Shown: positions 25,251 through 44,763 of the stretch, piece after piece
Layout: each line of letters starts with the position of its first letter
How positions within the stretch are numbered: position 1 is the first letter of the stretch
Virus record (IMG/VR): IMGVR_UViG_3300021197_000970
Location: 1-47,597 of that record
Source: a virus
Reading direction: 5' to 3' (one strand)
DNA: 47,597 bases
The notes under the pieces: model-generated
Told to the model about the DNA's origin: nothing
The model's input: the letters and a program-made list of their open reading frames with translations, nothing else
Databases searched by the model: none
Position numbers and translations under genes: made by a program

Positions 25251-25263
25251 TAGGGTTATAAAC
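25251..25263 (-). promoter_or_regulatory. Class A TATA promoter (RecA-like to polymerase operon)
   Basis: Minus strand GTTTATAACCCTA, identical over 13 bases to the element before the clamp-loader gene. TATA centre 25259 is 27 nt before ATG 25232, which predicts a leaderless mRNA. Confidence 0.74.
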
Positions 25264-26809: not shown

Positions 26810-27100
26810 TCATATAAAATCGTCATGTAAATCTTGGTCGTAGTATTCTTCTCCACCTATGTAGTACGGTACTTCTTCACCGTCAAATGCTAAAAGGTCA
26901 GAATAATGTACACAAACCCTACCGTCATCCAATGTCATTTGTATCTTATCACCATTGAATAGTACGGTGTCTCCGCACCCTATTTCTAGGGGTACGAGAG
27001 AACCAATACTATCAACAACATATTCTTTTGCGGTAATAAGACCCGATGTACTGATTGTTTCAGCCATCTTTAGGATAACGTATTCTCCTACGGCCTTCAT
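26810..27100 (-). CDS. groES: GroES-like co-chaperonin
   Basis: 96 residues from ATG 27100, which overlaps the upstream stop as ATGA; a longer frame start at 27166 lies inside the upstream gene. VGEYVILKMAE matches the first strand of Cpn10, ETISTSGLITAKE the mobile loop with a hydrophobic GLI edge, and CGDTVLFNGDKIQ plus VHYSDLLAF the barrel and C-terminal strand. An acidic C-terminal extension (EEYYDQDLHDD) is unusual. It would cap the GroEL-like ring encoded next to it. Confidence 0.8.
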   Translation of the reverse strand: MKAVGEYVILKMAETISTSGLITAKEYVVDSIGSLVPLEIGCGDTVLFNGDKIQMTLDDGRVCVHYSDLLAFDGEEVPYYIGGEEYYDQDLHDDFI

Positions 27101-28266
27101 TGTTCCCACCCATCGTTTTCCACGACAGGTTCGACCATTTGAGGGATGATGTCGAAGGCATACCAACCATTGACTGATAGCCTATCTTCACCTTCTCTAC
27201 TTCTCCAAGCCCCACCTAGTAGTAGCATCTTTGTTCCTACTGCAAAGTCAATTTCTTCATCACAATATACGTCAACCGTACCTGCCATAGAAGTCATATC
27301 AGTATCAGCACACACTAAAATGTAGCCACCGTTGTCTCTTGGGTCTATGTGTATTACTTCGGTAATAACAGCGCAGTTTCTATCCCACCAACCGTCTTTA
27401 CCGTTGTATGTGTCATAGTATGTACCTAAGTGAGATAAGCCCACTAATAGGTTTTCTTCACCAATCAAACCACCGATAATGTCAGTAGGCGAACCATCGA
27501 AAAGGTTAGCCAAAGAAGCATCAACAGTAGGTACTGAAACGTCTGCGTTTAGGTAGCATCTATCATTGTTACCACCCTTCATAGGGATAGTTAATGGTGT
27601 AAAAGATGGGTATTGTCTATCAGCAGCAGCACCGTTACCACTTACTTTAAGTATTTTTAAGGAATCATTACTTCCTTGTTTACGGCCATAGAACAATGAT
27701 GTTCTTTCTCTCTCATCTTGAGGTCGAGGCGCACCGTATTTGAAGTTAGCATCACCGGATGGGAATGTTGGGTTGTTCTTATCCCATACTACATAGAAGT
27801 GTGTGTTACCATCTAGTCTCATTGTGTGTTTTGGTAGAGTAGAAGTATCAGATTCAGTACCCATACCGAACATTTCTGCCGCTAGTCTTGTGTATGTACC
27901 GTCATTATTATCTTCAAAGACAACAACAGCCCCACTATCAATCAGTACTTGACGCACATCATCGGTAGCAGACATAAGTTGATTCTTCATCTTATTGTAT
28001 AGTATTTTACCCCATTCTTTAGGTCGAGGAACAGAAATGAACATACCTTCAAAGATGTCTGAGCCTGTTCTTCGTAGTTTAGCAGATTCAGAAGAGATTT
28101 GTCGCCCTGCGACTCTTAGTGCAAGTACTGCACAATCTTCATCAGAACGGCCTGCGTTTTTCCACGCAGCACCCTGTTCTACAAGGACTTCATCAGCCCT
28201 CTTTTGCACCGCTTCGGGTGCGACATTCAGCGTTTTAGCAATATTTTCAAGCATAGGGTTACTCAT
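27097..28266 (-). CDS. Possible ssDNA-binding (RPA-like) protein
   Basis: 389 residues. N-terminal helical domain (NIAKTLNVAPEAVQKRADEV), then a long beta-rich part; the C-terminal region VGTKMLLLGGAWRSREGED followed by RLSVNGWYAF reads like the closing strands of an OB fold, and residues 230-330 may hold another. Aromatic and basic content fits ssDNA binding. Heads an operon with the GroES/GroEL pair, between clamp loader and recombinase. Family membership is a guess from pattern; a structure prediction would decide. Confidence 0.68.
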   Translation of the reverse strand: MSNPMLENIAKTLNVAPEAVQKRADEVLVEQGAAWKNAGRSDEDCAVLALRVAGRQISSESAKLRRTGSDIFEGMFISVPRPKEWGKILYNKMKNQLMSATDDVRQVLIDSGAVVVFEDNNDGTYTRLAAEMFGMGTESDTSTLPKHTMRLDGNTHFYVVWDKNNPTFPSGDANFKYGAPRPQDERERTSLFYGRKQGSNDSLKILKVSGNGAAADRQYPSFTPLTIPMKGGNNDRCYLNADVSVPTVDASLANLFDGSPTDIIGGLIGEENLLVGLSHLGTYYDTYNGKDGWWDRNCAVITEVIHIDPRDNGGYILVCADTDMTSMAGTVDVYCDEEIDFAVGTKMLLLGGAWRSREGEDRLSVNGWYAFDIIPQMVEPVVENDGWEQ

Positions 28267-29588: not shown

Positions 29589-29990
29589 TTATGAATTATT
29601 CCTTACACAATGTAGACAAACATCCGAATCCGGTGGAAATACTCTTATTCTTCCGCACTTGCATTGTACTGCTTCTCTCCTTTGTGTAGGTGTCATCACG
29701 GTTGGAGTACGGCTATAAACTATATCATCGGTGGATTTAATTAACTCTCTATTTATGTCATAGATAAGATGGCTTGCTTTTAATCCTACGGCATTCTCCA
29801 CCTTCTCACTACCGACAGGTACAATTTGAGGATTCTTAGATAGGAGAGCCGATAAACTATGTGGTGAGGGTACTGCTCTCACGTTCTTATCACTAGAAAG
29901 TCTTTGTGCTACTGCCTCTTTAGTCATAGCACCATGTTTCCATAGTATATCGACTATAAGCCGCCTTACTCGACGGTTGTTCGCACTCAT
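29589..29990 (-). CDS. Winged-helix plus zinc-ribbon regulator
   Basis: 133 residues. Residues 5-55 form a winged helix (RRLIVDILWKHGAMTKEAVA, then SLSALLSKNPQIVPVG). The C terminus has CKCGRIRVFPPDSDVCLHC, a four-cysteine zinc ribbon. Architecture of an archaeal-type transcription regulator. One of five winged-helix proteins in the window. A TATA-like TTTATAC lies immediately upstream but is too close to be its own promoter. Confidence 0.7.
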   Translation of the reverse strand: MSANNRRVRRLIVDILWKHGAMTKEAVAQRLSSDKNVRAVPSPHSLSALLSKNPQIVPVGSEKVENAVGLKASHLIYDINRELIKSTDDIVYSRTPTVMTPTQRREAVQCKCGRIRVFPPDSDVCLHCVRNNS

Positions 29991-30017: not shown

Positions 30018-30206
30018 TTAATGGTTTCCTAAATCCGACCAAAAAATAGCATCAGCAAAGGAATTATCACTTTCATTTATACCTTCCCCTTCTGCTTCGG
30101 AAGCGTCAAAACATTTAGTACCCGTTACGTCTAATCCTACGACATCTCTAACGTAAATATGAAATAGATAACAACCAAATAAAAATATTGATGTCTCTAC
30201 AACCAT
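30018..30206 (-). CDS. Small protein with hydrophobic N terminus
   Basis: 62 residues; the ATG overlaps the 3' end of the upstream gene by 10 nt. Residues 4-17 (ETSIFLFGCYLFHIYV) are hydrophobic, possibly a membrane segment; the rest is acidic. The overlap pattern is like its neighbours, but nothing else confirms it. Confidence 0.45.
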   Translation of the reverse strand: MVVETSIFLFGCYLFHIYVRDVVGLDVTGTKCFDASEAEGEGINESDNSFADAIFWSDLGNH

Positions 30207-34232: not shown

Positions 34233-35018
34233 TTATTCACCTGCTGTATGTCCTTCTATATCTAATAGTGCCTCTTCAACTTTCAACATATAGTCTGCAT
34301 CAATAGACAGTAAATGCGTCTCGGTTAAAAACTTGACTATTGTATCAACGGATTTGATATTCACAAAAGTATTTTTTGTATTGCTACAAACCACTAAGTA
34401 ATTACCTTTATTATTAAGGGAAAAGTTTTCAAAGACTTCTGAAAACATCCACGCAGGCGGAGGTACTATCAATTGTTTTTTTGTTTCCTCAACGCTGTCA
34501 TGGAAGAATGAGTAGTCGGGTTTTTCTTGGTAGTCATAAATCAACAGGTCGTTATCGGGTATCTGTAATGTATCTTGATACATAAACTCCTGCATAATAT
34601 TCGTAGTAAGATATGTCATCTCATCAACACCTAGTTTGTTTAAGGATAAAACTATATCTCTCATTACAGGATAGTTATACAACCATGCTTTAGTTTTATC
34701 TTGATTTACTACATACGTGTGAGACATACGTAAGATAAAATATCTTCTGCCGATATTATTGTATGCTTCATACAATCTCCACTCGGCAAAACTTGGGTTA
34801 GGTACAGTATTAATTGGCTCTACGTTGTGTAGTTTAGAAAATATCTTACAGATTGGTTTAGCCTCACCTACAAGACCGCTACACGCTACAAAGGATGCGA
34901 AGCCCTGTTCTCCTTGAAAATACACTAACAAAGACGTAGGCTCGACTGACACGTTTTTACACCATACTAAATCTGTGTCGTTCATTTGTTGTATCATTTT
35001 TTCACTCAACATTTTCAA
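34233..35018 (-). CDS. Uncharacterised 261-residue protein beside the MCM-like gene
   Basis: Stop abuts the MCM-like ATG and start overlaps the upstream winged-helix gene by 17 nt, so the three are one operon. Alpha/beta sequence with LLVYFQGEQGFASFVACSGL and a C-terminal helical pair. No family recognised. Adjacent position suggests a helicase partner or loader. Confidence 0.68.
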   Translation of the reverse strand: MKMLSEKMIQQMNDTDLVWCKNVSVEPTSLLVYFQGEQGFASFVACSGLVGEAKPICKIFSKLHNVEPINTVPNPSFAEWRLYEAYNNIGRRYFILRMSHTYVVNQDKTKAWLYNYPVMRDIVLSLNKLGVDEMTYLTTNIMQEFMYQDTLQIPDNDLLIYDYQEKPDYSFFHDSVEETKKQLIVPPPAWMFSEVFENFSLNNKGNYLVVCSNTKNTFVNIKSVDTIVKFLTETHLLSIDADYMLKVEEALLDIEGHTAGE

Positions 35019-35373
35019 CCCTCCTTGTTACTGCATCTCTAAGAAACTTAGGGAATCTATGTAATTGCTTTTTCGATAATATTACTTTATCGACTGCTGT
35101 TTCAATCGGTCTTACATCCCATAGAGATATAATATTATTAGCCGAAGTATATTGGTGTGGTATGTTGCCTTTCTTTTCAAACAATATACTTCTATTCAAT
35201 ACTGCTGCCGCCCTTATACAAGAAATGGTGTCTTTAGCCTTCATACCCTTCTTATTCAACCTCTCATTATACCAATCGGTTATTTCTCTAGTGTTCTTCA
35301 TCCCTTCTTCGCTCAAATAATTATAGACTTCTGTTTGAAATCTTTTATTCAAAGCACCGCTTCTCTTACTCAT
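35002..35373 (-). CDS. Winged-helix protein heading the MCM-like operon
   Basis: 123 residues. Residues 10-70 (FQTEVYNYLSEEGMKNTREI, then TISCIRAAAVLNRSILFE) are a winged helix; the C terminus HRFPKFLRDAVTRR resembles HFPRILKDAYDAC in the protein at 38897, which suggests a common family. The class B promoter has its TATA-like centre about 35400, 27 nt before ATG 35373, so the mRNA should be leaderless. Confidence 0.7.
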   Translation of the reverse strand: MSKRSGALNKRFQTEVYNYLSEEGMKNTREITDWYNERLNKKGMKAKDTISCIRAAAVLNRSILFEKKGNIPHQYTSANNIISLWDVRPIETAVDKVILSKKQLHRFPKFLRDAVTRRVENVE

Positions 35374-35591
35374 ATTTTTTCCACCTATGTATTACGCTTT
35401 TAATTATTTTCTTTTATTACCGCAAGCGTCAAAAGAATAAAACGCTGTACTGAGAGCCTATTATTTATTTATTTTATTTCTTCTATAATGGTTAAGAGAC
35501 TAACCTATTACCATACATACTATTGAAGAAATTAAAAAATTAAAAAATAAAGCCGCAGTACCACGATTAATTCTTTTTGTAGCCCTCCTAA
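35374..35591. other. Intergenic AT-rich region with one class B promoter
   Basis: The right-hand part (35455-35590) is strongly AT-rich with no ATG-initiated reading frame of useful length. It follows the stop of the gene at 35592 and ends in the promoter at 35397-35430. It is the longest gap in the left part of the accessory region and may include the end of the upstream transcript. Confidence 0.6.
35397..35430 (-). promoter_or_regulatory. Class B promoter: GACGCTTG plus TATA (gene 35373)
   Basis: GACGCTTG at 35423-35430 (minus strand), 19 nt, then TTAAAAG at 35397-35403. TATA centre is 27 nt before ATG 35373. Non-coding DNA, so the octamer is not explained by a protein sequence. Confidence 0.7.
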
Positions 35592-36392
35592 CTATTGAAA
35601 AATTAATAAATAATTCTCATGTTCTAGTCTATTTCTATCTGCAAAGTCTATACTATTAGCCCTTGCTTTAGTGAATGGTTGTTCGGGTAATTCTTTTTCC
35701 CCAATAATATCTAAACTATGCAAATGTTCTTCGACCTGTTTATGGAATGTCTCTAGGGGTACTAGATGTGTCCAAAATGGTAGTATAGAAGCACGTACAG
35801 GCTGAATAAACCCATCACCTACCTCATACCTACCAACGATGTAAGTACGCTGTGTAGCACACACTATTTCTATGTGTTTTTTTCCGCTATGATACGCAAG
35901 CGTCGGGTACATTTTACCATCTATCTTACTCATCCTCATGTATGAATCCCAATCAGCAGGTTTGTGCATCAGATAAGCGGGCAACTGCTCGTATAATTCC
36001 ACAAGATATTTACTTTTACTATCCCATGCCCCGTCATCAATACCGTGTATGATACCCGAAGTAATCCACACACCAAAAGATGAATCGGGATAATCTTGTA
36101 TGAATGATAATATCAAATCATAGAAATCTAACTCACCATCTATGGATAAAGAGAGCCAATGATTACAGTCTAAAAATGATACTTCGTTATCCATAGCCAT
36201 GATAAATCTTGAGAACATACTTGTATCAAGTATAGCAAAATCTTTATCTAGTTTTTTATCCCTTAAAAGTATTGTAGGTTTTTTGTAAAATGGTTTACTT
36301 CTATTACCTTCGGCTGCTCTTGTGTATGGAGTCGCTTCTAATAATTCTAAATCCTTTACTTTTAGGATAAAGTAATCACTCTTCTGACTCAT
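35592..36392 (-). CDS. Uncharacterised 266-residue protein
   Basis: Start chosen at ATG 36392 (MSQKSDYFILKVKDLELLEA), after GAGAGGATG, rather than 36419. Beta-rich, with FAILDTSMFSRFIMAMDNEV and repeated strand-helix units; length and pattern loosely recall the sliding clamp fold but no motif supports that. Overlaps the upstream gene by 17 nt. Followed by a 218-nt gap. Confidence 0.66.
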   Translation of the reverse strand: MSQKSDYFILKVKDLELLEATPYTRAAEGNRSKPFYKKPTILLRDKKLDKDFAILDTSMFSRFIMAMDNEVSFLDCNHWLSLSIDGELDFYDLILSFIQDYPDSSFGVWITSGIIHGIDDGAWDSKSKYLVELYEQLPAYLMHKPADWDSYMRMSKIDGKMYPTLAYHSGKKHIEIVCATQRTYIVGRYEVGDGFIQPVRASILPFWTHLVPLETFHKQVEEHLHSLDIIGEKELPEQPFTKARANSIDFADRNRLEHENYLLIFQ

Positions 36393-36627
36393 ATTGCATC
36401 CTCTCAACGTGAACCGCATTGGCTTTACTCATCAAACTTCTAAACTCGTTTGTTACTTTCTGTGGAGTCTTTTTACCCCATGAACCTATACTCATGTACT
36501 TACGCATATCACTAATTAAGATGCGGTATTCGTGCATTTTATCTTCATCAGTCATATTCTCAACTCTAGCCTTTTCTGCTTCTGCTGCCGCTTTCTTTTC
36601 CGCTAAAACTTCGCTGTACTTTCTCAT
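36376..36627 (-). CDS. Uncharacterised 83-residue helical protein
   Basis: ATG 36627 overlaps the preceding stop (ATGA) in the string GGGGGCAGAAATATGA. Highly charged coiled coil at residues 8-30 (VLAEKKAAAEAEKARVENM), then a basic helix. The frame is open further upstream but that part lies inside the neighbour. Function unknown. Confidence 0.6.
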   Translation of the reverse strand: MRKYSEVLAEKKAAAEAEKARVENMTDEDKMHEYRILISDMRKYMSIGSWGKKTPQKVTNEFRSLMSKANAVHVERMQYESEE

Positions 36628-36974
36628 ATTTCTGCCCCCTGATAATGTAAGTGGAAGAGATACAGACTCAGCGTTTCCATGACTTTTGTAGCCCAAAACA
36701 TTCCATCTTCATTGAGTTCCCCCCATGAGTCATTGATACGGGGATGGTTAAAACCATAAACCATAGCCTCAACCAATTCTAATTCTCCCTCTTGAAGTGG
36801 AAAACGAGGGTCATTTGCAGGGATTGACATAATTTCTTCTGCGGCATCATCGTCATAAATATCATAATTGTCAATTCTTCCACCTGTTACATAGGAGTAT
36901 TCTCTAACTAATGCCCCTGAAACAATACCAATTCCTTCAACCTCAACCGAAGGCACAATCTCAAAGCGAGTCAT
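36624..36974 (-). CDS. Uncharacterised 116-residue acidic protein
   Basis: Starts at ATG 36974 in the same junction string as the next gene (GGGGGCAGAAATATGA). Acidic, with a central DIYDDDAAEE and a C-terminal helix. Ends GAEI, like the upstream gene's end, because both share the junction. No family recognised. Confidence 0.6.
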   Translation of the reverse strand: MTRFEIVPSVEVEGIGIVSGALVREYSYVTGGRIDNYDIYDDDAAEEIMSIPANDPRFPLQEGELELVEAMVYGFNHPRINDSWGELNEDGMFWATKVMETLSLYLFHLHYQGAEI

Positions 36975-37234
36975 ATTTCTGCCCCCTCATCATCATACAC
37001 ATAACTATGTACTTTGTATTCAGAAGCGACATCACCTCTAACTGTAAAGCCTGCCTTTATGACTCTAATATTCTTCATTCCTTTTAGTAGGTTACTAACT
37101 GCTTTGCTGTTACTAACTCTTTTTCCTCTTCTCTTAACATCAATGCTTCGGTATATTTCTTCCGCAGTCATTGGCTCACCTTTTTCTTTGAGAGCCTTAG
37201 TGATTGCGGCTCTAGTGTTTGCGTGTCTTTTCAT
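36971..37234 (-). CDS. Winged-helix regulator, 87 residues
   Basis: Start set at ATG 37234: the TATA-like TTTAAGTG (37256-37263) is centred 26 nt upstream, and a GTG at 37258 would overlap the TATA. Residues 1-70 are a winged helix (TRAAITKALKEKGEPMTAEE, SKAVSNLLKGMKNIRVIKAG) with a strand-turn wing. Likely a transcription regulator under class B control; a candidate for the octamer-binding factor. Confidence 0.7.
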   Translation of the reverse strand: MKRHANTRAAITKALKEKGEPMTAEEIYRSIDVKRRGKRVSNSKAVSNLLKGMKNIRVIKAGFTVRGDVASEYKVHSYVYDDEGAEI

Positions 37235-37235
37235 A

Positions 37236-37457
37236 TTACTCCGTCTCCTTCTTATCACTTAAAGGGTTCGTATCGGTGTCGCAAGCGTCAATAATCTTCT
37301 GTGCGTACACTACTGCATCCATCAATTCTTCTTTCAAATGCTGTACCCATTCGACAAAAGATAGGTCATCCCTATCCATTGTAGTACCGTATTTGGCCTC
37401 GCCTTTTTTAGCACGTTGTCTAATCTCAGCAATTACTTTTTCCTCAATACTACTCAT
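37236..37457 (-). CDS. MazG-like nucleotide pyrophosphohydrolase-type protein
   Basis: 73 residues. RAKKGEAKYGTTMDRDDLSF followed by EWVQHLKEELMDAVVYAQK has the EExxD helix of small all-alpha NTP-pyrophosphatase-like phage proteins. They hydrolyse non-standard or excess nucleotides. The C terminus (IIDACDTDTN) contains the octamer GACGCTTG of the next promoter as codons for D-A-C. Shares its first nine residues (MSSIEEKVI) with the upstream gene. Confidence 0.66.
   Translation of the reverse strand: MSSIEEKVIAEIRQRAKKGEAKYGTTMDRDDLSFVEWVQHLKEELMDAVVYAQKIIDACDTDTNPLSDKKETE
37256..37289 (-). promoter_or_regulatory. Class B promoter (gene 37234)
   Basis: GACGCTTG at 37282-37289, 18 nt, TTTAAGTG at 37256-37263; TATA centre 26 nt before ATG 37234. 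The octamer is inside the upstream gene as in-frame GAC GCT TGC. Confidence 0.72.
37430..37457 (-). repeat. 28-nt direct repeat at a gene start, copy 1
   Basis: The 28 bases from this ATG onwards match those at 37750-37777 in 27 positions, giving both proteins the start MSSIEEKVI. Downstream sequences of the two genes are unrelated. Confidence 0.75.
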
Positions 37458-37777
37458 TCAAACACCCCTCTCCTATGCCAATCACCTTCTTCATCTTCAA
37501 GCATAATATACTTAGGCCACTTTGTCTCCACGTTCTCGTAGGCATCTACTACCCACCGAGATACATTTCTTTCTATTGTAGTATCATCATCTAATTCCAT
37601 ATATAATGTCGCGTGTTTAACCCACCATCCTTTTACCCTACCTTCGGCAAATGGGTTTGTTTCACCATCTTCGGCACAAAATACCTCATCCAAATCTAGC
37701 GTACAATGTGTGTCATAGGTTAATTCAATTTTCTTTATGTCTTTGTTATCAATTACTTTTTCCTCTATACTACTCAT
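37454..37777 (-). CDS. Uncharacterised 107-residue protein
   Basis: Starts at ATG 37777 (MSSIEEKVIDNKDIKKIEL), overlapping the stop of a tiny zinc gene (TGATG); the extra N-terminal residues of the longer frame are rejected. Beta-rich with YMELDDDTTIERNVSRWVVD. Ends overlapping the MazG-like start (ATGA). Function unknown. Confidence 0.62.
   Translation of the reverse strand: MSSIEEKVIDNKDIKKIELTYDTHCTLDLDEVFCAEDGETNPFAEGRVKGWWVKHATLYMELDDDTTIERNVSRWVVDAYENVETKWPKYIMLEDEEGDWHRRGVFE
37750..37777 (-). repeat. 28-nt direct repeat at a gene start, copy 2
   Basis: Pairs with 37430-37457, one mismatch. Both copies begin at the ATG of their gene. Confidence 0.75.
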
Positions 37778-37866
37778 CAGAACCAACCTCCACATTTACC
37801 ACATATACTAGGGTACGCAGGCTTAGGGTAATCAATAACCCTACCTTCACAATCGCATTGTTTCAT
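37777..37866 (-). CDS. 29-residue zinc-binding microprotein
   Basis: Starts at ATG 37866, overlapping the upstream stop (ATGA), and ends overlapping the next ATG. CDC near residue 4 and CGKC at residues 22-25 can bind one zinc. Its position in a translation-coupled chain argues it is real despite its size. Confidence 0.55.
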   Translation of the reverse strand: MKQCDCEGRVIDYPKPAYPSICGKCGGWF

Positions 37867-38177
37867 TGTTTCCCCTTCCCCTTCTTTGGGTCATACTTAG
37901 CATATATATCCTTTCTTGGGCGGCTAGTTCGTGTATCATAGTCCGATGGATTGGGTACTGTATGTACTTCTTCATGTGGTGATTGTGTCAAGTATAGATT
38001 TGCTATTGTGTTTACATCCCAATGACCTTGTTTAACGGTAAAAATACTACCGGACTTTAGATGTATGTCTAAATAACCATTTTCGACTATTGCCGCAATC
38101 TCTCGTCTATCTATCTTTACTTTTCCGGTATTACAAACTAATGTCTCACTCCAATATTCTCTTTTTAATTCACTCAT
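37863..38177 (-). CDS. Uncharacterised 104-residue protein
   Basis: Residues 1-65 are strand-rich (VKIDRREIAAIVENGYLDIH, FTVKQGHWDV), perhaps a small beta-barrel; the C-terminal 30 residues are basic and disordered (RTSRPRKDIYAKYDPKKGKG). No family recognised. May bind nucleic acid. Confidence 0.6.
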   Translation of the reverse strand: MSELKREYWSETLVCNTGKVKIDRREIAAIVENGYLDIHLKSGSIFTVKQGHWDVNTIANLYLTQSPHEEVHTVPNPSDYDTRTSRPRKDIYAKYDPKKGKGKQ

Positions 38178-38178
38178 T

Positions 38179-38406
38179 TTATATCGCCCCTATTTTATCT
38201 TCTAAGTCTTGTATTCTATCACATACTTCTGAATGTACTTCTTCTATTTCCATTTCTGCATGGTGGCTCATACCTATGTTAGTGGGTAAAGACTGTGCTA
38301 CTTCTGCTATGTAATGCAAGGCATATTGACAAGCATCTTCCGCTACTCTTAGCATTGACAATTCATCAGCAATCTCTTGTAGTCTTACCTCAATCATCTT
38401 ACTCAT
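38179..38406 (-). CDS. Uncharacterised 75-residue helical protein
   Basis: Starts directly after the TAG of the preceding small gene. Two long helices with a His/Met turn (NIGMSHHAEMEIEEVH), likely a helical hairpin. No family recognised. Confidence 0.58.
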   Translation of the reverse strand: MSKMIEVRLQEIADELSMLRVAEDACQYALHYIAEVAQSLPTNIGMSHHAEMEIEEVHSEVCDRIQDLEDKIGAI

Positions 38407-38571
38407 CTAAGCCACCTGCCAATCAATACCATTCATAATGTCTACGTAATCTGATGGGTTGTCAATCACATCTTCCATGTAATCATCAATACTTTGGTGT
38501 ATCAAATCATCTGCGTCAATCTCTATTATATCTTCTACTTTTATTATTACTTTTATCTTTATACTACTCAT
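38407..38571 (-). CDS. Uncharacterised 54-residue acidic protein
   Basis: ATG 38571 overlaps the upstream stop (ATGA); stop abuts the next ATG. Begins MSSIKIKVI, with a DNA start ATGAGTAGTATA shared with the genes at 37457 and 37777. Acidic C-terminal helix region (DADDLIHQSIDDYMEDV). Function unknown. Confidence 0.55.
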   Translation of the reverse strand: MSSIKIKVIIKVEDIIEIDADDLIHQSIDDYMEDVIDNPSDYVDIMNGIDWQVA

Positions 38572-38801
38572 TCTTCTTCACCTACCCTTAACCAATGTGC
38601 TTTAATTTGTCTAGCCGAGTATATTTCTCCCGAATCAGAAGTCCATAGGACTACGCCTTCATCTCCGACCCAACTACTTACAATTGTCATCGCAATACCG
38701 TTGTGTATGTTACCAAAGGTTATACCTCTAATATCTTCTACACCGTCGGGTAGGGGGGCTTTCTTTCTTAGTTCTTGGTTTATCATTTTTCTTTCATTCA
38801 T
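38568..38801 (-). CDS. Uncharacterised 77-residue protein
   Basis: Basic N terminus (MNERKMINQELRKKAPLPDG), then small beta-rich domain (GIAMTIVSSWVGDEGVVLW), resembling a compact SH3-like barrel. Ends GEEE with the GAAGAAGAATGA junction. Function unknown. Confidence 0.58.
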   Translation of the reverse strand: MNERKMINQELRKKAPLPDGVEDIRGITFGNIHNGIAMTIVSSWVGDEGVVLWTSDSGEIYSARQIKAHWLRVGEEE

Positions 38802-38890
38802 TCTTCTTCACATCCATTGTTTGCCTTACGGGCTTTGTATTTCATATTGTATCTGTATTGTCTTGCTTTGTTTTGTTGTTTGTTAGGCAT
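38798..38890 (-). CDS. 30-residue basic microprotein under class B control
   Basis: ATG 38890 follows GGGAGTGAAGCAGA, and the stop overlaps the next ATG. It is very basic (KQQNKARQYRYNMKYKARKA), so it may bind nucleic acid. A class B promoter lies 39-72 nt upstream, which strongly supports expression. Confidence 0.56.
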   Translation of the reverse strand: MPNKQQNKARQYRYNMKYKARKANNGCEEE

Positions 38891-38896
38891 TCTGCT

Positions 38897-39301
38897 TCAC
38901 TCCCTTATTCCTACCGAATCGCCCATAGGTCTTAAAGACTTCTGTTCTGCTATGCAAGCGTCGTATGCGTCTTTCAGTATTCTAGGAAAATGTTTAGGCT
39001 CGGTTTGCATATGAGTTAATGAGGCTAACTTACGGGCTACTTCATTAACATCACGTATGTCATATTTGTAAATCTTATTTTTATTATGGTCTACCCCAAA
39101 ACTTTCTTTTGTCCTAAAGAAAAGTTTATTTTTAGATAGAGTCATACTCAATTCTTTGATACTACAATGGCCTGTTTTTTTCGTACTAAAGTCTTGTTTT
39201 TCATAGGCTGATAGTAATTCTTTACTTGTCTGAATACCATTGTCCTGTATGTATCTATAACAGAAGTCAAGCATTTGCTTTCGTGGTCGCCTACTCCCCA
39301 T
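38897..39301 (-). CDS. Winged-helix protein, 134 residues
   Basis: Residues 8-75 are a winged helix (MLDFCYRYIQDNGIQTSKEL, SIKELSMTLSKNKLFFRT). The C-terminal HFPRILKDAYDAC matches HRFPKFLRDA of the 35002 protein. The codons for D-A-C near its end are the octamer of the next promoter. Start overlaps the upstream gene by 11 nt. Probably a viral regulator. Confidence 0.66.
   Translation of the reverse strand: MGSRRPRKQMLDFCYRYIQDNGIQTSKELLSAYEKQDFSTKKTGHCSIKELSMTLSKNKLFFRTKESFGVDHNKNKIYKYDIRDVNEVARKLASLTHMQTEPKHFPRILKDAYDACIAEQKSLRPMGDSVGIRE
38929..38962 (-). promoter_or_regulatory. Class B promoter (gene 38890)
   Basis: GACGCTTG 38955-38962, 18 nt, TTTAAGAC 38929-38936. Predicted transcription start about 38906 leaves a 16-nt leader with GGGAG. 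Confidence 0.7.
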
Positions 39302-39479
39302 TTTCAGTCATCTCCTTTACTATCTGATTGACATGAAGTAAGAAGCCACGCCATGAATCTTGAAGCACATTATCGTTCGTAGTTTCTTTTACACCTGTTA
39401 AATAATAAACATACTCTTTTCCTAAAAGAAAACTTTGGTAGTGTTCGGCTACAATTTTATTCACTTCTGATTGTTTCAT
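39291..39479 (-). CDS. Uncharacterised 62-residue protein
   Basis: Helical; begins MKQSEV, as does the zinc protein just upstream, with nearly identical first 17 bases. ATG lies three bases past the upstream stop region. Contains AEHYQSFLLGKEYVYYLTG. Function unknown. Confidence 0.56.
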   Translation of the reverse strand: MKQSEVNKIVAEHYQSFLLGKEYVYYLTGVKETTNDNVLQDSWRGFLLHVNQIVKEMTENGE

Positions 39480-39481
39480 TC

Positions 39482-39625
39482 TTACTCATCCTCACAATCA
39501 CATTCAAAACAGGAAAAATATTTATTATAGCACCCAATACAAAAACCACTATCGCATTCTACATAATCGTGTTCTTCCATTTCATCACCACACTCGTCAC
39601 AATGCATCACTTCTGACTGCTTCAT
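39482..39625 (-). CDS. 47-residue cysteine-rich zinc protein
   Basis: ATG 39625 overlaps the upstream stop (ATGA). Eight cysteines in CDECG, CDSGFCIGC and CFECDC, enough for two zinc sites, in a RING-like or treble-clef-like spacing. Acidic overall. Too short for most gene callers but in the coupled chain. Confidence 0.6.
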   Translation of the reverse strand: MKQSEVMHCDECGDEMEEHDYVECDSGFCIGCYNKYFSCFECDCEDE

Positions 39626-39918
39626 TCTTCCCACTCCCAACCTTTTGTCTCATACAATATCTCACCTATGTCTATGTATTGCTCTTGAGTAGCACCGCAC
39701 TCTTCACACACTAATTCGACATACATATCAAACAATTCTGTACCATTTTTTGCTAAGTATCTTTTCCAAGTATCTAAATCGCCAACGGGCTTTGATTTTA
39801 TTTTTACCGTTATAGTATTAAGGTACAAATCTCCGTGTTCACATTTTTCTTGTATGTATTCCTCAGCCATGTCGCTTCTCATATCAGCGTCTAGTTTTTC
39901 CCATGTATGTTCATTCAT
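39622..39918 (-). CDS. 98-residue protein with zinc-ribbon-like ends
   Basis: KCEHGD near residue 25 and CEECGAT near residue 72 could form one zinc site around a beta-sheet (YLNTITVKIKSKPV; FDMYVELV). Acidic tail GWEWEE with a GAAGAATGA junction. Function unknown. Confidence 0.6.
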   Translation of the reverse strand: MNEHTWEKLDADMRSDMAEEYIQEKCEHGDLYLNTITVKIKSKPVGDLDTWKRYLAKNGTELFDMYVELVCEECGATQEQYIDIGEILYETKGWEWEE

Positions 39919-40091
39919 TCTTCTTCATCTCCACTTTGTTTTACGGGTAATGTTCGTAATCCACCTTCATACACAACACCGTTTACCTCTACTTTAAGGT
40001 ACAGTTTATGTTCATAGAAATCACAATCTAATATATTTAACAAACCCACTAATCGGTTGTATTTTCCCCTATACTCTTCCGGTAATCTCAT
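39915..40091 (-). CDS. Uncharacterised 58-residue protein
   Basis: Start at ATG 40091, overlapping the previous stop (ATGA) after GGGGGAAGAAGA; a start at 40112 is rejected. Short helix then beta strands (YLKVEVNGVVYEGGL). Ends DEEE. Function unknown. Confidence 0.56.
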   Translation of the reverse strand: MRLPEEYRGKYNRLVGLLNILDCDFYEHKLYLKVEVNGVVYEGGLRTLPVKQSGDEEE

Positions 40092-40348
40092 TCTTCTTCC
40101 CCCAATGTCCAATGTACGGTTTCACCACGCACTTCTGTATCACCTAGAACATTCATGTTTCCAACCCACTCGATAGGCAATTCGGCATCTAAGCCAATAT
40201 CAATTTTGTCCTCAAAGAATAAACAGATTTTACTTTTTCTACCATCTATACCCATTATATGAATCTTCACTAAATTGGGTATGTCGCGATTAACTGCCGC
40301 TATTCGTATCTCTTTTATGCCGTGTGTTGTTATGTCTGTATTTCTCAT
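40088..40348 (-). CDS. Uncharacterised 86-residue beta-rich protein
   Basis: Strands such as EIRIAAVNRDIPNLVKIHIM and KICLFFEDKIDIGL suggest a beta-sandwich. The ATG is preceded by ATGGAGGAC and lies 24-25 nt from a TATA centre. Ends GEEE. Function unknown. Confidence 0.6.
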   Translation of the reverse strand: MRNTDITTHGIKEIRIAAVNRDIPNLVKIHIMGIDGRKSKICLFFEDKIDIGLDAELPIEWVGNMNVLGDTEVRGETVHWTLGEEE

Positions 40349-40350
40349 AT

Positions 40351-40485
40351 CTAGTCCTCCATGTCTTTTTTTATAAGGTTTTTCACTACGCTACGCAAGC
40401 GTGTGAGAGGGCGACGGCTATTGAAAAAGGAGGAAAATATAGCCGCCCCCTCATCTTGAGTTTTATTTAAGAAAAAACTACTCAT
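40351..40485 (-). CDS. 44-residue basic protein overlapping a promoter
   Basis: ATG 40485 overlaps the upstream stop (ATGA) and TAG lies three bases before the next ATG, so it tiles the gap exactly. Basic C-terminal half (SRRPLTRLRSVVKNLIKK). A class B promoter lies within it; the frame could be incidental. Confidence 0.45.
   Translation of the reverse strand: MSSFFLNKTQDEGAAIFSSFFNSRRPLTRLRSVVKNLIKKDMED
40369..40403 (-). promoter_or_regulatory. Class B promoter (gene 40348)
   Basis: CACGCTTG at 40396-40403 (first base differs), 19 nt, TTATAAAA at 40369-40376, centre about 25 nt before ATG 40348. Confidence 0.6.
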
Positions 40486-40673
40486 TGTATTTCCTTCCCA
40501 TCTTGTAATATATTACCACTTGATACTACGTATTTTTTTGCGCCACACTTGAGGCATTCAACATCACATTCGGTCAATAATCTATTGTTAGATACCGCAC
40601 TTACTGTAAAAACTCTTGATACTGACCAAACACAAGTACCGCCTGCCGGATGTTCACACTTTTCTTTTATCAT
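40482..40673 (-). CDS. 63-residue zinc-binding protein
   Basis: ATG 40673 overlaps the stop of the membrane microprotein (ATGA). Ligands: CEH and C near residues 6-14, and CLKC about 41-44. Beta-rich between them (RVFTVSAVSNNRLLTEC). Function unknown. Confidence 0.58.
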   Translation of the reverse strand: MIKEKCEHPAGGTCVWSVSRVFTVSAVSNNRLLTECDVECLKCGAKKYVVSSGNILQDGKEIQ

Positions 40674-40750
40674 AATAATAACCCCACTAATATACATACT
40701 AATGATAATACTATTAAGATAATAGTTTGTGAAAAATCATCGTCTCTCAT
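40670..40750 (-). CDS. 26-residue membrane microprotein
   Basis: Starts at ATG 40750, overlapping the upstream stop, and ends overlapping the next ATG. MRDDDFS then 18 hydrophobic residues (TIILIVLSLVCILVGLLL): a single membrane helix with an acidic N terminus. The overlap at both ends argues for translation. Confidence 0.55.
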   Translation of the reverse strand: MRDDDFSQTIILIVLSLVCILVGLLL

Positions 40751-41322
40751 TCGACCAACCCCATCCACCAATGAGGTACACGACGACCATCCCACACAGC
40801 AAACTTTTTGCTATGATAATAGCGTCTATAAGCCTGTATTGCTTCTTCGCCTCTTGCATGACTGATGATACCTTTTTCATCGTCTGTTATTACAGCAAAG
40901 GGCTTACTTACAGCAGTCATATAATCCGGTCTATACTCATCGGGCATAGCGAGAGCAAAGTGTGTACGATTGCCTTCGGGAATTAGTTTTACCATAGAAC
41001 TAAGGTGTCGAATACCTGCCTCGCAAAAATGTATTTTGTTATACTTGTTAGTGTATTCTTTACATATCTCTAAAGCATGGCGTACAGTCCAAACGTAATT
41101 ATCGCTACTGTCGCCTACCCATCGAGTACACGGATGATTATGATAGCCACCCTTGAGAGGTGTACCTTTCTTAGTAAGAGGCATCATGTCGGGCGTAGCA
41201 CCATGTCTGATGACACTACTGCCTAGCATTTGAAGCATCTCTACGCACATTTTAGGCAGGTGTTTATTGCAGTAATCTCTCGCTGCTAATTCGGGGTTTT
41301 CATTTAGTACAAATATATTCAT
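40747..41322 (-). CDS. Conserved phage-type protein of unknown function
   Basis: 191 residues. MNIFVLNENPELAARDYC, KHLPKMCVEML, NHPCTRWV, NYVWTVRHA and the C-terminal AYRRYYHSKK with VPHWW form a pattern I recall from many tailed-phage hypothetical proteins (FVLD.dP..aA...cdKH). Conserved His, Cys and Trp suggest an enzyme, but no function is known to me. Coupled to a 31-residue zinc peptide upstream. Confidence 0.68.
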   Translation of the reverse strand: MNIFVLNENPELAARDYCNKHLPKMCVEMLQMLGSSVIRHGATPDMMPLTKKGTPLKGGYHNHPCTRWVGDSSDNYVWTVRHALEICKEYTNKYNKIHFCEAGIRHLSSMVKLIPEGNRTHFALAMPDEYRPDYMTAVSKPFAVITDDEKGIISHARGEEAIQAYRRYYHSKKFAVWDGRRVPHWWMGLVE

Positions 41323-41414
41323 TCTTCTTCTCTCCTTCCCGTTCCGTAATTTCTACCACATACTCTACATTTTTGTTCGCCCATAACTCTAGGGCAACCG
41401 CTTTTACATCTCAT
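41319..41414 (-). CDS. 31-residue zinc-knuckle microprotein
   Basis: ATG 41414 lies 25-26 nt from the centre of CTTAAAAG (41436-41443), predicting a leaderless mRNA; the stop overlaps the next ATG. CKSGC (3-7) and CRVC (16-19) can bind zinc. Basic, ends GRREEE. Promoter geometry and coupling both support it. Confidence 0.6.
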   Translation of the reverse strand: MRCKSGCPRVMGEQKCRVCGRNYGTGRREEE

Positions 41415-41435
41415 AATGTCTCGTCTCCGACTTTA

Positions 41436-41470
41436 CTTTTAAGAGTATAGTAGTATGCTTCTCAAGCGTT
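41436..41470 (-). promoter_or_regulatory. Class B promoter (gene 41414)
   Basis: AACGCTTG at 41463-41470 (first base differs), 19 nt, CTTAAAAG at 41436-41443. It begins immediately after the structured RNA at 41472. Confidence 0.62.
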
Positions 41471-41471
41471 T

Positions 41472-41582
41472 GGTTGGCTTATCCGACGGCTCTCGTAAAC
41501 ATACCCATCAAACGGCTTTCGCCTACGGGTAATACGATTGGATAACGGTTTGGACTACCCCAAATGTGTAGCCTCGCCAACC
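41472..41582 (-). ncRNA. Predicted structured RNA, three-way junction
   Basis: Minus-strand pairing seen by hand: closing stem GGTTGGC/GCCAACC (41582-41576 with 41478-41472); hairpin GGCTAC/GTAGTC (41573-41568 with 41558-41553); arm of TTATCC/GGATAA (41545-41540 with 41484-41479), TCGTA/TACGA (41537-41533 with 41497-41493), ACCC/GGGT (41530-41527 with 41506-41503) and GGC-GAAA-GCC (41523-41514). The hairpin pairs fully only on the minus strand, where one pair is G-U, and the tip is a GNRA loop only on that strand. It lies 17 nt after the DUF932-like stop. Confidence 0.6.
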
Positions 41583-41599
41583 TCACTTGAGTTTTATGC

Positions 41600-42577
41600 T
41601 TATAGATAATCTCCTACTAGAGACTCCCATGCCTTAGCCTTCATTCTTGAGCCTGTACCCATGATTGCCGACTCGACTCTCTTGTCGTTAGACTTCTCAC
41701 CTTTACGGTCGAATGTCCATTCGTGGTCTATGTAGTACGTTGCTGTATTGAAGGCAGCGAAGGCACTAGAACCGTTGCCGTTGTGGTTGTTGGTAGGATG
41801 TGCTTCAACCTCTAGTAATCTCTCTAGTGTGTTGTTGCCTCTTGTAGTCAATCCTAGAGGATTAGCCGCATCCACTAACTCTTCATTTTGTTTTATCCCA
41901 AAAGTATCTAGGTAAAAAGATACTCTATCTTCTTGAGTCATCTCAATGTTAACTAATTCTTGAGCGTCTAAGACGAATTGTTGGTTGAGCATATCCACTA
42001 CTTTTAATGCCTCGACTAATTCCGCTACTCTCTCTTCTTGCTTTGCTGAATGGCGTATTACTAATTTCTTAGGGTCAATGCCTGCTCTCTTGATACCTGC
42101 CATTAGATGACTGAATTGGTTAGAGCATCCGATAATTACGTTGCTAGGAATTACTCTAATTCCACCGCTACCGTCATGCGTATTTGTAAGGTAAATGTAT
42201 TGGTCTACATCATCCCAACCGCTAATTGTAAATCCTTCCGGCAGTTTGAAAGAAGCGAATAATTTCTCTCCTTCGCCAATCATACCTATCTTATCCCAAT
42301 CAATTTCACCGCGTTGTACTAATTCATTAGCAATACCTAATAATCTATCATTTTGCATTGGTACATATGTACGGCCTACTACGCCTAGAGTCATGTCGTT
42401 ATCTTGTCTAAAGATACGATTAAACTTAGACCTAATCGGTTTACCTTTCGAGGTATATAGTGGCTCAATAGCCACATCGAAGTTAAGTCCGGCATTAGCC
42501 AAGACCTCTTCGGCAGTCGTTCCTTGTGCGTCATTTCCAAAGCGGCCAATTGCCGCCATCATGTTTCTCATTGTCAT
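41600..42577 (-). CDS. DUF932-family phage/plasmid protein
   Basis: 325 residues. VVGRTYVPMQNDRLLGIANELV, FASFKLPEGFTI and YLTNTHDGSGGIRVIPSNVI are characteristic of the DUF932 (phage/plasmid-like TIGR03299) family; later CSNQFSH and a C-terminal AFAAFNTATYYIDHEWTF also fit. Family length is about 300-380. Function is unknown though common in phages and plasmids. Class B promoter; 26-nt leader with GGGAGGA. The structured RNA lies in its 3' region. Confidence 0.8.
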   Translation of the reverse strand: MTMRNMMAAIGRFGNDAQGTTAEEVLANAGLNFDVAIEPLYTSKGKPIRSKFNRIFRQDNDMTLGVVGRTYVPMQNDRLLGIANELVQRGEIDWDKIGMIGEGEKLFASFKLPEGFTISGWDDVDQYIYLTNTHDGSGGIRVIPSNVIIGCSNQFSHLMAGIKRAGIDPKKLVIRHSAKQEERVAELVEALKVVDMLNQQFVLDAQELVNIEMTQEDRVSFYLDTFGIKQNEELVDAANPLGLTTRGNNTLERLLEVEAHPTNNHNGNGSSAFAAFNTATYYIDHEWTFDRKGEKSNDKRVESAIMGTGSRMKAKAWESLVGDYL

Positions 42578-42578
42578 G

Positions 42579-42719
42579 TTATTGTTCCTCCCTGTTTGTT
42601 GGGTGAATTGTCCTAGAGGCTTCCACTCTTAAAGGTGTCGCCTCCTGCTTCTCAAGCGTCGTATATTTCGCTTTTGAATAGTTAGTTTTAGCCCTAATTA
42701 AAGGTGTGTGCTGGCTCAT
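42579..42719 (-). CDS. 46-residue basic protein tiling the gap
   Basis: ATG 42719 directly follows the upstream stop, and TAA lies one base before ATG 42577. Basic, polar (SQHTPLIRAKTNYSKAKY). The class B promoter of the next gene lies inside it, so the frame could be fortuitous. Confidence 0.42.
   Translation of the reverse strand: MSQHTPLIRAKTNYSKAKYTTLEKQEATPLRVEASRTIHPTNREEQ
42626..42660 (-). promoter_or_regulatory. Class B promoter (DUF932-like gene)
   Basis: GACGCTTG 42653-42660, 19 nt, TTTAAGAG 42626-42633. Predicted start near 42603, leader about 26 nt with GGGAGGA. Confidence 0.72.
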
Positions 42720-43070
42720 TTAGAAATCCCTCACTAATATTGAATCATCACCTAAAACGATGTGATAGGTGTTATCTTCTAGGTACTCAAAAACATCGTC
42801 AGAATCGTATGTCTCTTGCTTTGTATTTAGGTACGTCTCTTTAACTTCGTCTATGTCATCATATTGAGTCCACTCGCAGCAAATACCTATAACGTCTAAT
42901 TCATAAGCCTGCGATATTTCATAATGCTCTCCAACCATCTCATCATAATAATCGAATAAAACCTCAATTGCTTCTTCGGTAAAATTACCATGCGTCTCAC
43001 TAGTTTTCAATCGCCCGTATCTTCTAAATGCGTCTATCATTCCGTATTTTCCTATTCTTGTGTATATCAT
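42720..43070 (-). CDS. Conserved phage-type protein with ICCEW motif
   Basis: 116 residues. NFTEEAIEVLFDYYDEM, LDVIGICCEWTQYDDIDEV and ILVRDF follow a pattern common in phage hypothetical proteins (VIAICCEYTEY). Acidic, helical. No function known. Class B promoter with a 16-nt leader and AAGGAGAG. Confidence 0.72.
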   Translation of the reverse strand: MIYTRIGKYGMIDAFRRYGRLKTSETHGNFTEEAIEVLFDYYDEMVGEHYEISQAYELDVIGICCEWTQYDDIDEVKETYLNTKQETYDSDDVFEYLEDNTYHIVLGDDSILVRDF

Positions 43071-43108
43071 TTTTCTCTCTCCTTGTATTTGTCTCTAAAC
43101 ATACTTTG

Positions 43109-43143
43109 CTCTTAAACCTATCTTATTCCGCCTCACAAGCGTC
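43109..43143 (-). promoter_or_regulatory. Class B promoter (gene 43070)
   Basis: GACGCTTG 43136-43143, 19 nt, TTTAAGAG 43109-43116. The octamer encodes D-A-C within the last residues of the upstream gene. Confidence 0.74.
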
Positions 43144-43521
43144 AACAGCAAATTGAGGCCAAATCCTGTGTACTAGGCTCAATAATACTAGATGATGAGG
43201 TTCATTTCTATCAAATCCTTCATGTGTGTCGCTACTTTGATGATACATTTCTAAAAAATAACCATCACTAACTAATTCTAATGCGTGTTTTTGTGTCAAT
43301 TTTTGTTCGTCATTTTCATATGCCCAAATCATTTTTATTGCTTGCTCTTCGTTCATCTCATTAGTGCGATAATAGTCATGTTGAATATCTAAACGATAAC
43401 CTAAAAGCATAGCCAAATCTGTATCAGTTAATACTGATGGTTCGGGTCGTATTGTCATTCTTACTTTATTGTCTGACCACATTAGTGGTTTTCCGTGTGC
43501 GCCTAATCTTCTTCTTGTCAT
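43123..43521 (-). CDS. Uncharacterised 132-residue protein
   Basis: Basic N terminus (MTRRRLGAHGKPLMW), helical middle with HDYYRTNEMNEEQAIKMIWA, C terminus FAVDACEAE. ATG 43521 lies 26 nt from the TATA centre; a GGAGAG site is also present for read-through mRNA. No family recognised. Confidence 0.64.
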   Translation of the reverse strand: MTRRRLGAHGKPLMWSDNKVRMTIRPEPSVLTDTDLAMLLGYRLDIQHDYYRTNEMNEEQAIKMIWAYENDEQKLTQKHALELVSDGYFLEMYHQSSDTHEGFDRNEPHHLVLLSLVHRIWPQFAVDACEAE

Positions 43522-43543
43522 ATATCTCTCTCCTTATCCTTTA

Positions 43544-43577
43544 CTCTTAAATCTATTTATTGTGTATCGCAAGCGTC
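43544..43577 (-). promoter_or_regulatory. Class B promoter (gene 43521)
   Basis: GACGCTTG 43570-43577, 18 nt, TTTAAGAG 43544-43551; centre 26 nt before ATG 43521. Octamer again encodes D-A-C of the upstream gene. Confidence 0.74.
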
Positions 43578-44213
43578 GCATATTACCCGCATCTTAGCCT
43601 CTCTAATATCGTTCTTGTGAACCTTTGCCGCCTTGATAGCAGGCATCTCAATCTTACATCCCGAACATACTCCCGTAATTCCTTTTAGCATAAAACTAAC
43701 TGCTTCGGTAGTGATACAATCGGCTGAATGCCTCCATGTAATCGGGTTGATATTTATTATTTTCTTAATACTAACAGCCTCATTGATGAGGGCAATTTTA
43801 GCGGCTGATAATCCCGCTTTCGGGCAGGTTGGAAGATGTTGCCTTTGAGGGCAACCACATTCACGGAATCCTGTAAATCGGCCATTCAATGAACCGACTC
43901 TTGCCTTGACTTCACCTTGACCGTTTTGGCCGCCTGTTTTGCCTCTACTAGATGCAATCGGACACTTTTCACCGTGTGCCTTGTGGTTGCGACCTTTACA
44001 GGCTTTGTAACGGCATGGTTTACCGATTTGAGGGGTTACTTTTGGCGTAGAAATAACTACGATTTCAAGACCTGCTTCTCTCATTAATTTGCGGTATTGA
44101 GTAGTATGGCCTCCTAGCGACCTAGATGAATATTTGATGCCTAGAGCCATGTTATTTCGAGCCGTTTCCATATCGGCCTTCTTAGCCTCGATACGTGCTA
44201 GAATATCGCTCAT
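43557..44213 (-). CDS. Multi-zinc-finger protein, 218 residues
   Basis: N-terminal helix, then Cys/His clusters: CRYKACKGRNHKAHGEKC, ECGCPQRQHLPTC, and a C-terminal pair CSGC and CDAC forming a zinc ribbon. A Gly/Gln linker separates the first two. Likely binds nucleic acid; no family recognised. Start overlaps the upstream stop (ATGA). Confidence 0.66.
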   Translation of the reverse strand: MSDILARIEAKKADMETARNNMALGIKYSSRSLGGHTTQYRKLMREAGLEIVVISTPKVTPQIGKPCRYKACKGRNHKAHGEKCPIASSRGKTGGQNGQGEVKARVGSLNGRFTGFRECGCPQRQHLPTCPKAGLSAAKIALINEAVSIKKIININPITWRHSADCITTEAVSFMLKGITGVCSGCKIEMPAIKAAKVHKNDIREAKMRVICDACDTQ

Positions 44214-44530
44214 TCTAGTGCCTCCGTTATATCATCAACATAGTCATAACTAGCCGTATATTTGCCGTATTTATGTGCTAATTCCGGTATCTCAACCGCG
44301 TCTCCTGTTACATTTGTTATATGATTACTAAGCAATTGAATTACGCCTAGTAAATTGCCTGCTTTGTGTATATATCCACCATCTTCGCCTTCTATTGTTA
44401 TCGCCACTGTGTACGTCATTAATCTATGGTAGACGGGTTCGGTACTTATAGTTATGGGAAAAGTAACCTCGATTGATGGGGTTATTATTCCGGTTGAAAT
44501 AAGTCGCCTATGATATTGACCCTCTAACAT
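44210..44530 (-). CDS. Uncharacterised 106-residue beta-rich protein
   Basis: Start set at ATG 44530 because the class B TATA (44560-44567) predicts transcription from about 44537; the longer frame from GTG 44560 would begin inside the TATA. Strands such as ITPSIEVTFPITIST and LMTYTVAITIEGED suggest a beta-sandwich. First gene of the leftward accessory region. Function unknown. Confidence 0.6.
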   Translation of the reverse strand: MLEGQYHRRLISTGIITPSIEVTFPITISTEPVYHRLMTYTVAITIEGEDGGYIHKAGNLLGVIQLLSNHITNVTGDAVEIPELAHKYGKYTASYDYVDDITEALE

Positions 44531-44559
44531 ACCTATCAAGGCGTGTGAGAGCATCCACA

Positions 44560-44594
44560 CGTAAAAAGGTTGCTATGTACGCATCACAAGCGTC
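44560..44594 (-). promoter_or_regulatory. Class B promoter (gene 44530)
   Basis: GACGCTTG 44587-44594, 19 nt, TTTTTACG 44560-44567. The TATA is weak but spacing matches the set. Non-coding DNA. Confidence 0.6.
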
Positions 44595-44713
44595 AAAGTA
44601 GAAATTGGCTCATTGACTTGCCTGTATAATAGAGATAGAATCGCATTTACTTTAACCCTAATACAAACCTCCCTTTACGATTATTCAATACCCGCCATGA
44701 CCTAGCCTAATCT

Positions 44714-44737
44714 GAGATGAGATGGAGGCTTATAATC
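44714..44737 (+). promoter_or_regulatory. Class C promoter element, copy 1
   Basis: GAGATGAGATGG (44714-44725), 4 nt, TTATAATC (44730-44737). No ATG-started gene follows within 200 nt. Confidence 0.58.
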
Positions 44738-44763
44738 ATTATGAATCGTGAATCACAAGCGTC
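44729..44763 (-). promoter_or_regulatory. Class B promoter, leftward, no clear gene
   Basis: GACGCTTG 44756-44763, 19 nt, ATTATAAG 44729-44736. The TATA is the same bases as that of class C copy 1, read on the other strand. Predicted leftward start about 44706; only a five-codon frame follows. Confidence 0.52.

Follow-up and report, generated by a model that had tools for sequence, protein, structure and literature searches.

The DNA considered here (the window) is IMG/VR record IMGVR_UViG_3300021197_000970 at its full length of 47,597 bases, probably a fragment. Between 35 and 45 kb its minus strand carries an octamer, GACGCTTG, that recurs upstream of mostly small accessory genes at a nearly constant distance from a TATA-like box. 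This octamer-TATA element, and the virus protein that might read it, are the subject of what follows. An earlier note on this DNA had listed ten octamers and proposed a virus regulon. The sites are given below with the element, the spacing in nucleotides (nt), the TATA-like box and the distance from that box to the open reading frame (ORF) behind it; wHTH stands for winged helix-turn-helix.

44728..44763, minus: site 1, GACGCTTGTGATTC, 20 nt, TTATAAGC; conserved in L003-L005, L007 and L008
44560..44594, minus: site 2, GACGCTTGTGATGC, 19 nt, weak TATA TTTTTACG; ahead of ORF 44210-44530, then the Cys/His protein gene
43544..43577, minus: site 3, GACGCTTGCGATAC, 18 nt, TTTAAGAG, 30 nt to ATG of 43123-43521
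43109..43143, minus: site 4, GACGCTTGTGAGGC, 19 nt, TTTAAGAG, 46 nt to ATG of 42720-43070
42626..42660, minus: site 5, GACGCTTGAGAAGC, 19 nt, TTTAAGAG, 56 nt to ATG of DUF932 gene 41600-42577
41435..41470, minus: site 6, AACGCTTGAGAAGC, 19-20 nt, CTTAAAAG, 28 nt to ATG of 31-aa (amino acid) ORF 41319-41414
40369..40403, minus: site 7, CACGCTTGCGTAGC, 19 nt, TTATAAAA, 28 nt to ATG of 40088-40348
38929..38962, minus: site 8, GACGCTTGCATAGC, 18 nt, TTTAAGAC, 46 nt to ATG of 30-aa ORF 38798-38890
37256..37289, minus: site 9, GACGCTTGCGACAC, 18 nt, TTTAAGTG, 29 nt to ATG 37234 of wHTH gene 36971-37234
35396..35430, minus: site 10, GACGCTTGCGGTAA, 19 nt, TTAAAAGC, 30 nt to ATG of wHTH gene 35002-35373, head of the replication cluster
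30074..30107, minus: site 11 (absent from the earlier note), GACGCTTCCGAAGC, 18 nt, TATAAATG, 91 nt before wHTH gene 29589-29990

An octamer at a fixed distance from TATA

The pattern is far from random. All ten octamer positions that had been listed (35423, 37282, 38955, 40396, 41463, 42653, 43136, 43570, 44587 and 44756, given as low coordinates on the minus strand) are exact, and eight of them read GACGCTTG, the exceptions being 40396 (CACGCTTG) and 41463 (AACGCTTG). On the minus strand of the whole record GACGCTTG is the top over-represented 8-mer, with 10 copies against 0.31 expected under an order-2 Markov model, and there are no copies on the plus strand of the whole record. The next-ranking minus-strand 8-mers are AAATCCAA/AATCCAAA words, with 12-13 copies over the whole record including a run near 47000. 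The form NACGCTTG occurs 11 times on the minus strand of the 35-45 kb region, and 10 of these copies have a TATA-like pentamer 18, 19 or 20 nt past the octamer. Such a pentamer has a background probability of 1.8% in the 18-20 window. The shuffled-sequence control suggested in the earlier note was run, and dinucleotide shuffles gave a mean of 0.006 pairs (at most 1 in 500 shuffles) against the 10 observed.

A scan from -40 to +80 around the octamers places TATA-like pentamers only at +18, +19 and +20, apart from one octamer with matches at -38/-37. The rigid spacing claimed earlier stands, but the claim of exactly 18 or 19 nt must be widened to 18-20 nt. The box at 44567 is a weak TTTTTA. When a matrix built from 71 sites of other viruses only was run on the window, it recovered all ten sites together with the one at 30107 (GACGCTTCCGAAGC, TATA at 18), where about 0.05 TATA-linked sites per strand are expected by chance. 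The gene homologous to 29589-29990 in L035 is also preceded by a site (5414). Strong octamers at 35904 and 22630 are intragenic and have no TATA box.

The statement that nine octamers precede a gene start turns out to be slightly generous. Seven sites do lie 28-56 nt (measured from TATA) before ORFs of at least 86 aa, but those at 41470 and 38962 face ORFs of only 30-31 aa, and behind the site at 44763 not even a 20-aa ORF lies within 110 nt of the TATA box. The two short ORFs, 41319-41414 (31 aa, Cys-rich) and 38798-38890 (30 aa), may be real small genes. At site 9, the ORF as listed (36971-37258) has a GTG start at 37258 that falls within the TATA box, and the likely true start of this wHTH gene is the ATG at 37234. 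The small inverted repeat described earlier is real although imperfect, the relatives' consensus GACGCTTGCGAnGCA approximating CGCTT-GCG-AAGC. This dyad would suit a dimeric or two-module reader.

The same architecture extends well beyond the window. Across 22 viral loci, 124 distinct sites combine the element, 17-20 nt, a TATA-like box and then an ATG; the 17-20 nt spacing was part of the definition of these sites, and the unconstrained scan of the window agrees with it. Of the 110 sites with a nearby ORF start, 79 have their ATG 28, 29 or 30 nt after TATA, and 87 have it at 27-31 nt. Given how far from TATA archaeal transcripts usually start, transcription would begin at or beside the ATG, as in leaderless mRNAs. 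What, then, is the purpose of the GGAG, GAGG, GGTG or AGGA found immediately before the ATG in 77 of the 87 tight sites? Possibly the ribosome site is there for read-through mRNAs that begin at promoters further upstream. The two signals tend to occur separately in host genomes, with the pre-ATG motif (in a slightly stricter pattern) at 4 of 16 ORFs that have TATA at 26-32. Window promoters that pair a 28-30 nt TATA-ATG distance with GGAG/GAGG/GGTG include 43521-43551, 37234-37263 and 35373-35403. The arrangement of the sites at all these loci indicates that the element is a promoter-proximal regulatory element.

Relatives with and without the array

The element stands at the corresponding promoters in L003-L005, L007, L008, L010 and others, on the gene strand only, and reversed-pattern controls in the relatives gave near zero. 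The proposal of a virus regulon, with one factor sitting next to the TATA-bound complex, is thus well supported, because the element is conserved, follows gene starts at a rigid distance and is missing from the 194 host genomes searched (see below).

One clue to the identity of that factor comes from a virus that has no octamers. G001 (locus L006) is very closely related, sharing the gene order and having a neighbouring AAA-type gene that is 94% identical. Its promoters keep their TATA-like cores but have lost the octamers, as seen upstream of the 35002 homologue, where the window has CTTTTGACGCTTGCGGTAATAAAAGAAAATAATTAAAAGCG and G001 has ATTTTTGTAGACAACATAACAAAAGAAAATAATTAAAACCG. No significant replacement motif was found in G001, although generic one-mismatch 8-mer discovery was too insensitive, barely detecting known arrays. 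The orthologue table mixes wHTH paralogues, and only rows with the same flanks were used. In three further loci (L140 at 3745, L141 at 5385 and L194 at 6304) the promoter matching site 10 retains a AATTAAAAGCG core and has GGTTGCGTGGTC upstream, once per locus.

Comparing the gene content of G001 with that of motif-bearing viruses singled out a 218-aa Cys/His protein. It is listed here with the three winged-helix proteins that had been proposed as binders.

43557..44213, minus: Cys/His protein, 218 aa, candidate octamer reader from comparative gene content
35002..35373, minus: winged-helix-like protein, first gene after site 10; also in motif-less relatives
36971..37234, minus: winged-helix-like protein, after site 9; also in motif-less relatives
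38897..39301, minus: third winged-helix candidate of the earlier note; family also in motif-less relatives

Support for the Cys/His protein comes from outside the set used to select it. The virus of L150, with an AAA-type gene 74% identical, has a rich array and encodes the protein. When the family alignment was run against 2.9 million viral contigs, 28 loci came up, and those with enough downstream sequence have an array directly after the Cys/His gene (in L222 and L223 a variant of the GACGCTTA type). Alignment A2 proved too divergent for scanning the collection, and a short match in L267 was set aside as apparently spurious. Homologues are encoded by 17 of 50 records. Records with an array but no homologue (G005, G007-G011, G013-G015 and G017) are all fragments that end before the expected position of the gene, and about a dozen long relatives have neither. 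When 27 window families were profiled over 24 records, the Cys/His family alone was present in all 14 records with a GACGCTTR array and in none of the 7 without, although the absences in G006 and G034 weigh less since these two array-less records are short. G001/G006, lacking both array and protein, are the single clean case of co-loss.

Pfam, PHROG, NCBIfam, PDB and phage records gave no match for the protein. Nevertheless, its distribution makes it the best candidate reader of the octamer, a putative zinc-type DNA-binding regulator. Because its gene would be transcribed from site 1 or 2, it is probably autoregulated.

Divergent homologues accompany altered motifs, of the GACGCTTAAGA and TGCTTGCGTGG types. 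The homologues of G046 and G047 (about 37% identity) go with 8-9 copies each of GACGCTTAAGAAKCA in the same place. Those of G020 and G022, which keep the SKxRxGxxNGR stretch without the first Cys cluster, go with TGCTTGCGTGG. In G048 and G049 the motif is GACGCTTGCGA, its second half altered, and in G027 a very divergent homologue occurs alongside AAACTCACC (L145/L230). The proteins of G046/G047 and L010/L221 are 63% identical, with conspicuous differences around GG-SKxRxGxxNGR and a nearly identical C-terminal part. Perhaps this stretch is the recognition module, a guess based on where the differences centre. Unrelated elements occupy the same slot where no homologue was detected, namely CCTTACGCTGCGC (G029; L147/L235), CCTTACRAACCCGC (G034; L155/L236) and ATAGTCRC (G036; L160/L238). 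Like the elements of G033 and G027, these are multi-copy and lie at a constant distance upstream of TATA. Taken together, the comparisons suggest that the slot persists in related lineages while operator and protein are altered or exchanged together.

Candidate readers and modes of action

The explanation we lean towards, with modest confidence, is that this magrovirus-like virus encodes its own transcription regulon, in which the repeats serve as promoter-proximal operators and the Cys/His protein 43557-44213 reads them, most likely as an activator. In this scenario the protein would bind GACGCTTGnGAnGC about 43-57 bp before the expected transcription start; this operator stands immediately ahead of the factor-B site and the TATA box, at a nearly constant distance from them. 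The protein would most likely activate by aiding the binding of host TBP/TFB at weak TATA boxes, and the many weak boxes (TTTAAG) suit an activator. It would drive the accessory genes, the operon that encodes it and the first genes of the replication cluster, presumably early in infection. A bolder version, which we hold tentatively and as a possibility rather than an expectation, is that viruses of marine archaea have a fixed slot upstream of early TATA boxes in which a lineage-specific operator and its reader switch jointly, one family of readers being a new Cys/His DNA-binding type in which GG-x-SKxRxGxxNGR reads GCTTGCG. Such joint switching would be similar to the immunity groups of temperate phages.

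Several observations do not fit easily with a Cys/His reader. On the tree of the AAA gene the arrays fall almost into a single clade, with one clean co-loss; an independent-pairs test gave p 0.5, a test that for this very reason has no power. L008 has no octamer at one orthologous promoter. The G049 homologue has no C-terminal Cys-pair domain, yet its array is present, and the weak homologue in G033 lies on the opposite strand to the CGTTAACTGCG genes (L153/L231). The evidence from folds is weak too, with no recognisable DNA-binding fold, two low-confidence AlphaFold models (pTM 0.32-0.34) and nothing at E below 0.001 in three Foldseek searches. Nor was there a sequence or fold match (again with low-confidence models) to a known archaeal or viral zinc-finger family.

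Could the octamer instead be read by one of the virus winged-helix proteins (35002, 36971, 38897 or 29589), with a specificity that shifts between lineages? Three such genes lie directly behind sites, the families diverge fast beside conserved genes, and characterised archaeal regulators mostly have helix-turn-helix (HTH) folds (PMC5569661). However, these families occur in nearly all relatives, including those without the motif, whereas gene 43557 tracks the motif. In particular, G001 keeps homologues of 35002 (85% identity) and 38897 (71%) and yet has no octamer. This makes a winged-helix reader unlikely, and the earlier suggestion of 36971, 38897 and 35002 as binders loses its footing.

A different question is whether the Cys/His protein represses rather than activates. 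It might hold down early or anti-defence genes and its own operon, much as proposed for Aca8 in Sulfolobus rudiviruses. The early genes of SIRV2 share a virus-specific regulatory sequence tied to Aca8 (PMC11065993), and in the window the targets are mostly small accessory genes with the regulator inside the regulon. We nevertheless doubt this. Most studied archaeal repressors act on the TATA box or the start (PMC5569661), whereas the element lies upstream of the factor-B recognition element (BRE) and TATA at a fixed distance, and many weak TATA boxes would be better served by an activator.

It is very improbable that a host transcription factor reads the element and that the virus has copied a host regulon. 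Archaeal viruses do depend on host RNA polymerase, and TFB is found in the host and not in the virus records (none in 24, with the host positive). However, 194 Poseidoniales genomes yielded 5 octamer-TATA matches against 29 for a reversed control pattern, and the motif varies between viruses. Host mimicry was rejected for want of enrichment in these genomes, a test that covers the 194 searched, while the true host might lie outside them. The Cys/His protein has no match in the same 194 genomes, whereas the same query finds virus records. With motif and protein absent from the host genomes and TFB present only there, the virus seems to supply regulator and operators, and the host the basal machinery. 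Finally, oriented multi-copy repeats can serve as replication, packaging or recombination sites, and TTG...TTTAAG superficially resembles a bacterial -35/-10 pair, but such readings can practically be dismissed given the rigid distance to TATA and start codons at 22 loci, the archaeal-type family-B DNA polymerase (PolB) and clamp loader, and closest PolB records from haloarchaeal viruses.

The virus, known systems and significance

Magroviruses (order Magrovirales) of Poseidoniales carry their own replisome (PolB, clamp loader, primase, nucleases) and GroEL, with GroES also in Aoguangviridae (PMC10768690), and their 90-110 kb genomes have oppositely oriented replication and virion genes (PMC12999244). 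The window matches these descriptions in gene content and strand layout, which points to a magrovirus-like identity. Its matched proteins are PolB (24% identical to its nearest relatives among annotated phage records, from haloarchaeal tailed viruses), an RFC-small-like clamp-loader subunit, ERCC4 and PD-(D/E)XK nucleases, PAPS reductase, a tail tube protein and a tape-measure protein. PCNA and primase were suspected from reading only and gave no match. Virion and replication genes are on opposite strands. Replisome and GroEL are thus present and the gene directions agree, while the record measures 47.6 kb against 90-110 kb. The window therefore fits a fragment of an archaeal tailed virus, with the gene content of a magrovirus of Poseidoniales; from that content we infer a Poseidoniales host. 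Other features are as follows.

25256-26800: GroEL/Cpn60 chaperonin, matched
26810-27166: GroES-like neighbour of GroEL, without Pfam match
41600-42577, minus: DUF932 / TIGR03299 phage-plasmid-like protein, target gene of site 5
40747-41322: match to Pfam Pyr_excise (pyrimidine dimer DNA glycosylase family), in the accessory region

Parts of this arrangement are familiar. In Sulfolobus rudiviruses and others, many small viral genes of one genome likewise share an early-gene regulatory sequence around TATA, and its flanks vary between viruses, implying different regulators (PMC11065993). However, the rudivirus system combines a conserved strong TATA/BRE core with the regulator Aca8, whereas the window combines a weak core with a discrete element 18-20 nt upstream and a co-varying Cys/His candidate that has no Pfam, NCBIfam or PHROG match, the Aca8 sequence itself not having been directly compared. 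The placement of the site is more like that in activation by Ptr2 and Ss-LrpB, where a tightly constrained site just upstream of BRE recruits TBP (PMC2995911). These are cellular Lrp-family HTH proteins, whereas 43557-44213 has no HTH match. The tailed archaeal halovirus HF2 also has multi-copy, promoter-carrying repeats at positions conserved in its genus; they are 29-58 bp long, and the portion of the source drawn on here names no cognate regulator (PMC8707807). AFV1p06 is another virus-encoded putative zinc DNA-binding protein from archaea, but it is a 7-kDa protein with a eukaryotic-type finger (PMC5569661), whereas the window family is larger and has other Cys/His spacing. By analogy, the system resembles a Ptr2-type upstream-activating-site regulon with a candidate reader outside every family tested.

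In the literature searched, no work brought together magrovirus, Marine Group II and promoter. Poseidoniales are very abundant, and transcription control in their viruses is essentially undescribed. It is now possible to name a set of targets, an operator and its spacing rules, and one candidate regulator of no known fold, which makes an in vitro test possible without a cultured host. The motif also predicts co-expression of viral genes of unknown function, possible anti-defence genes among them, and the lineage-specific operators amount to a natural experiment on the co-evolution of archaeal regulators and their sites.

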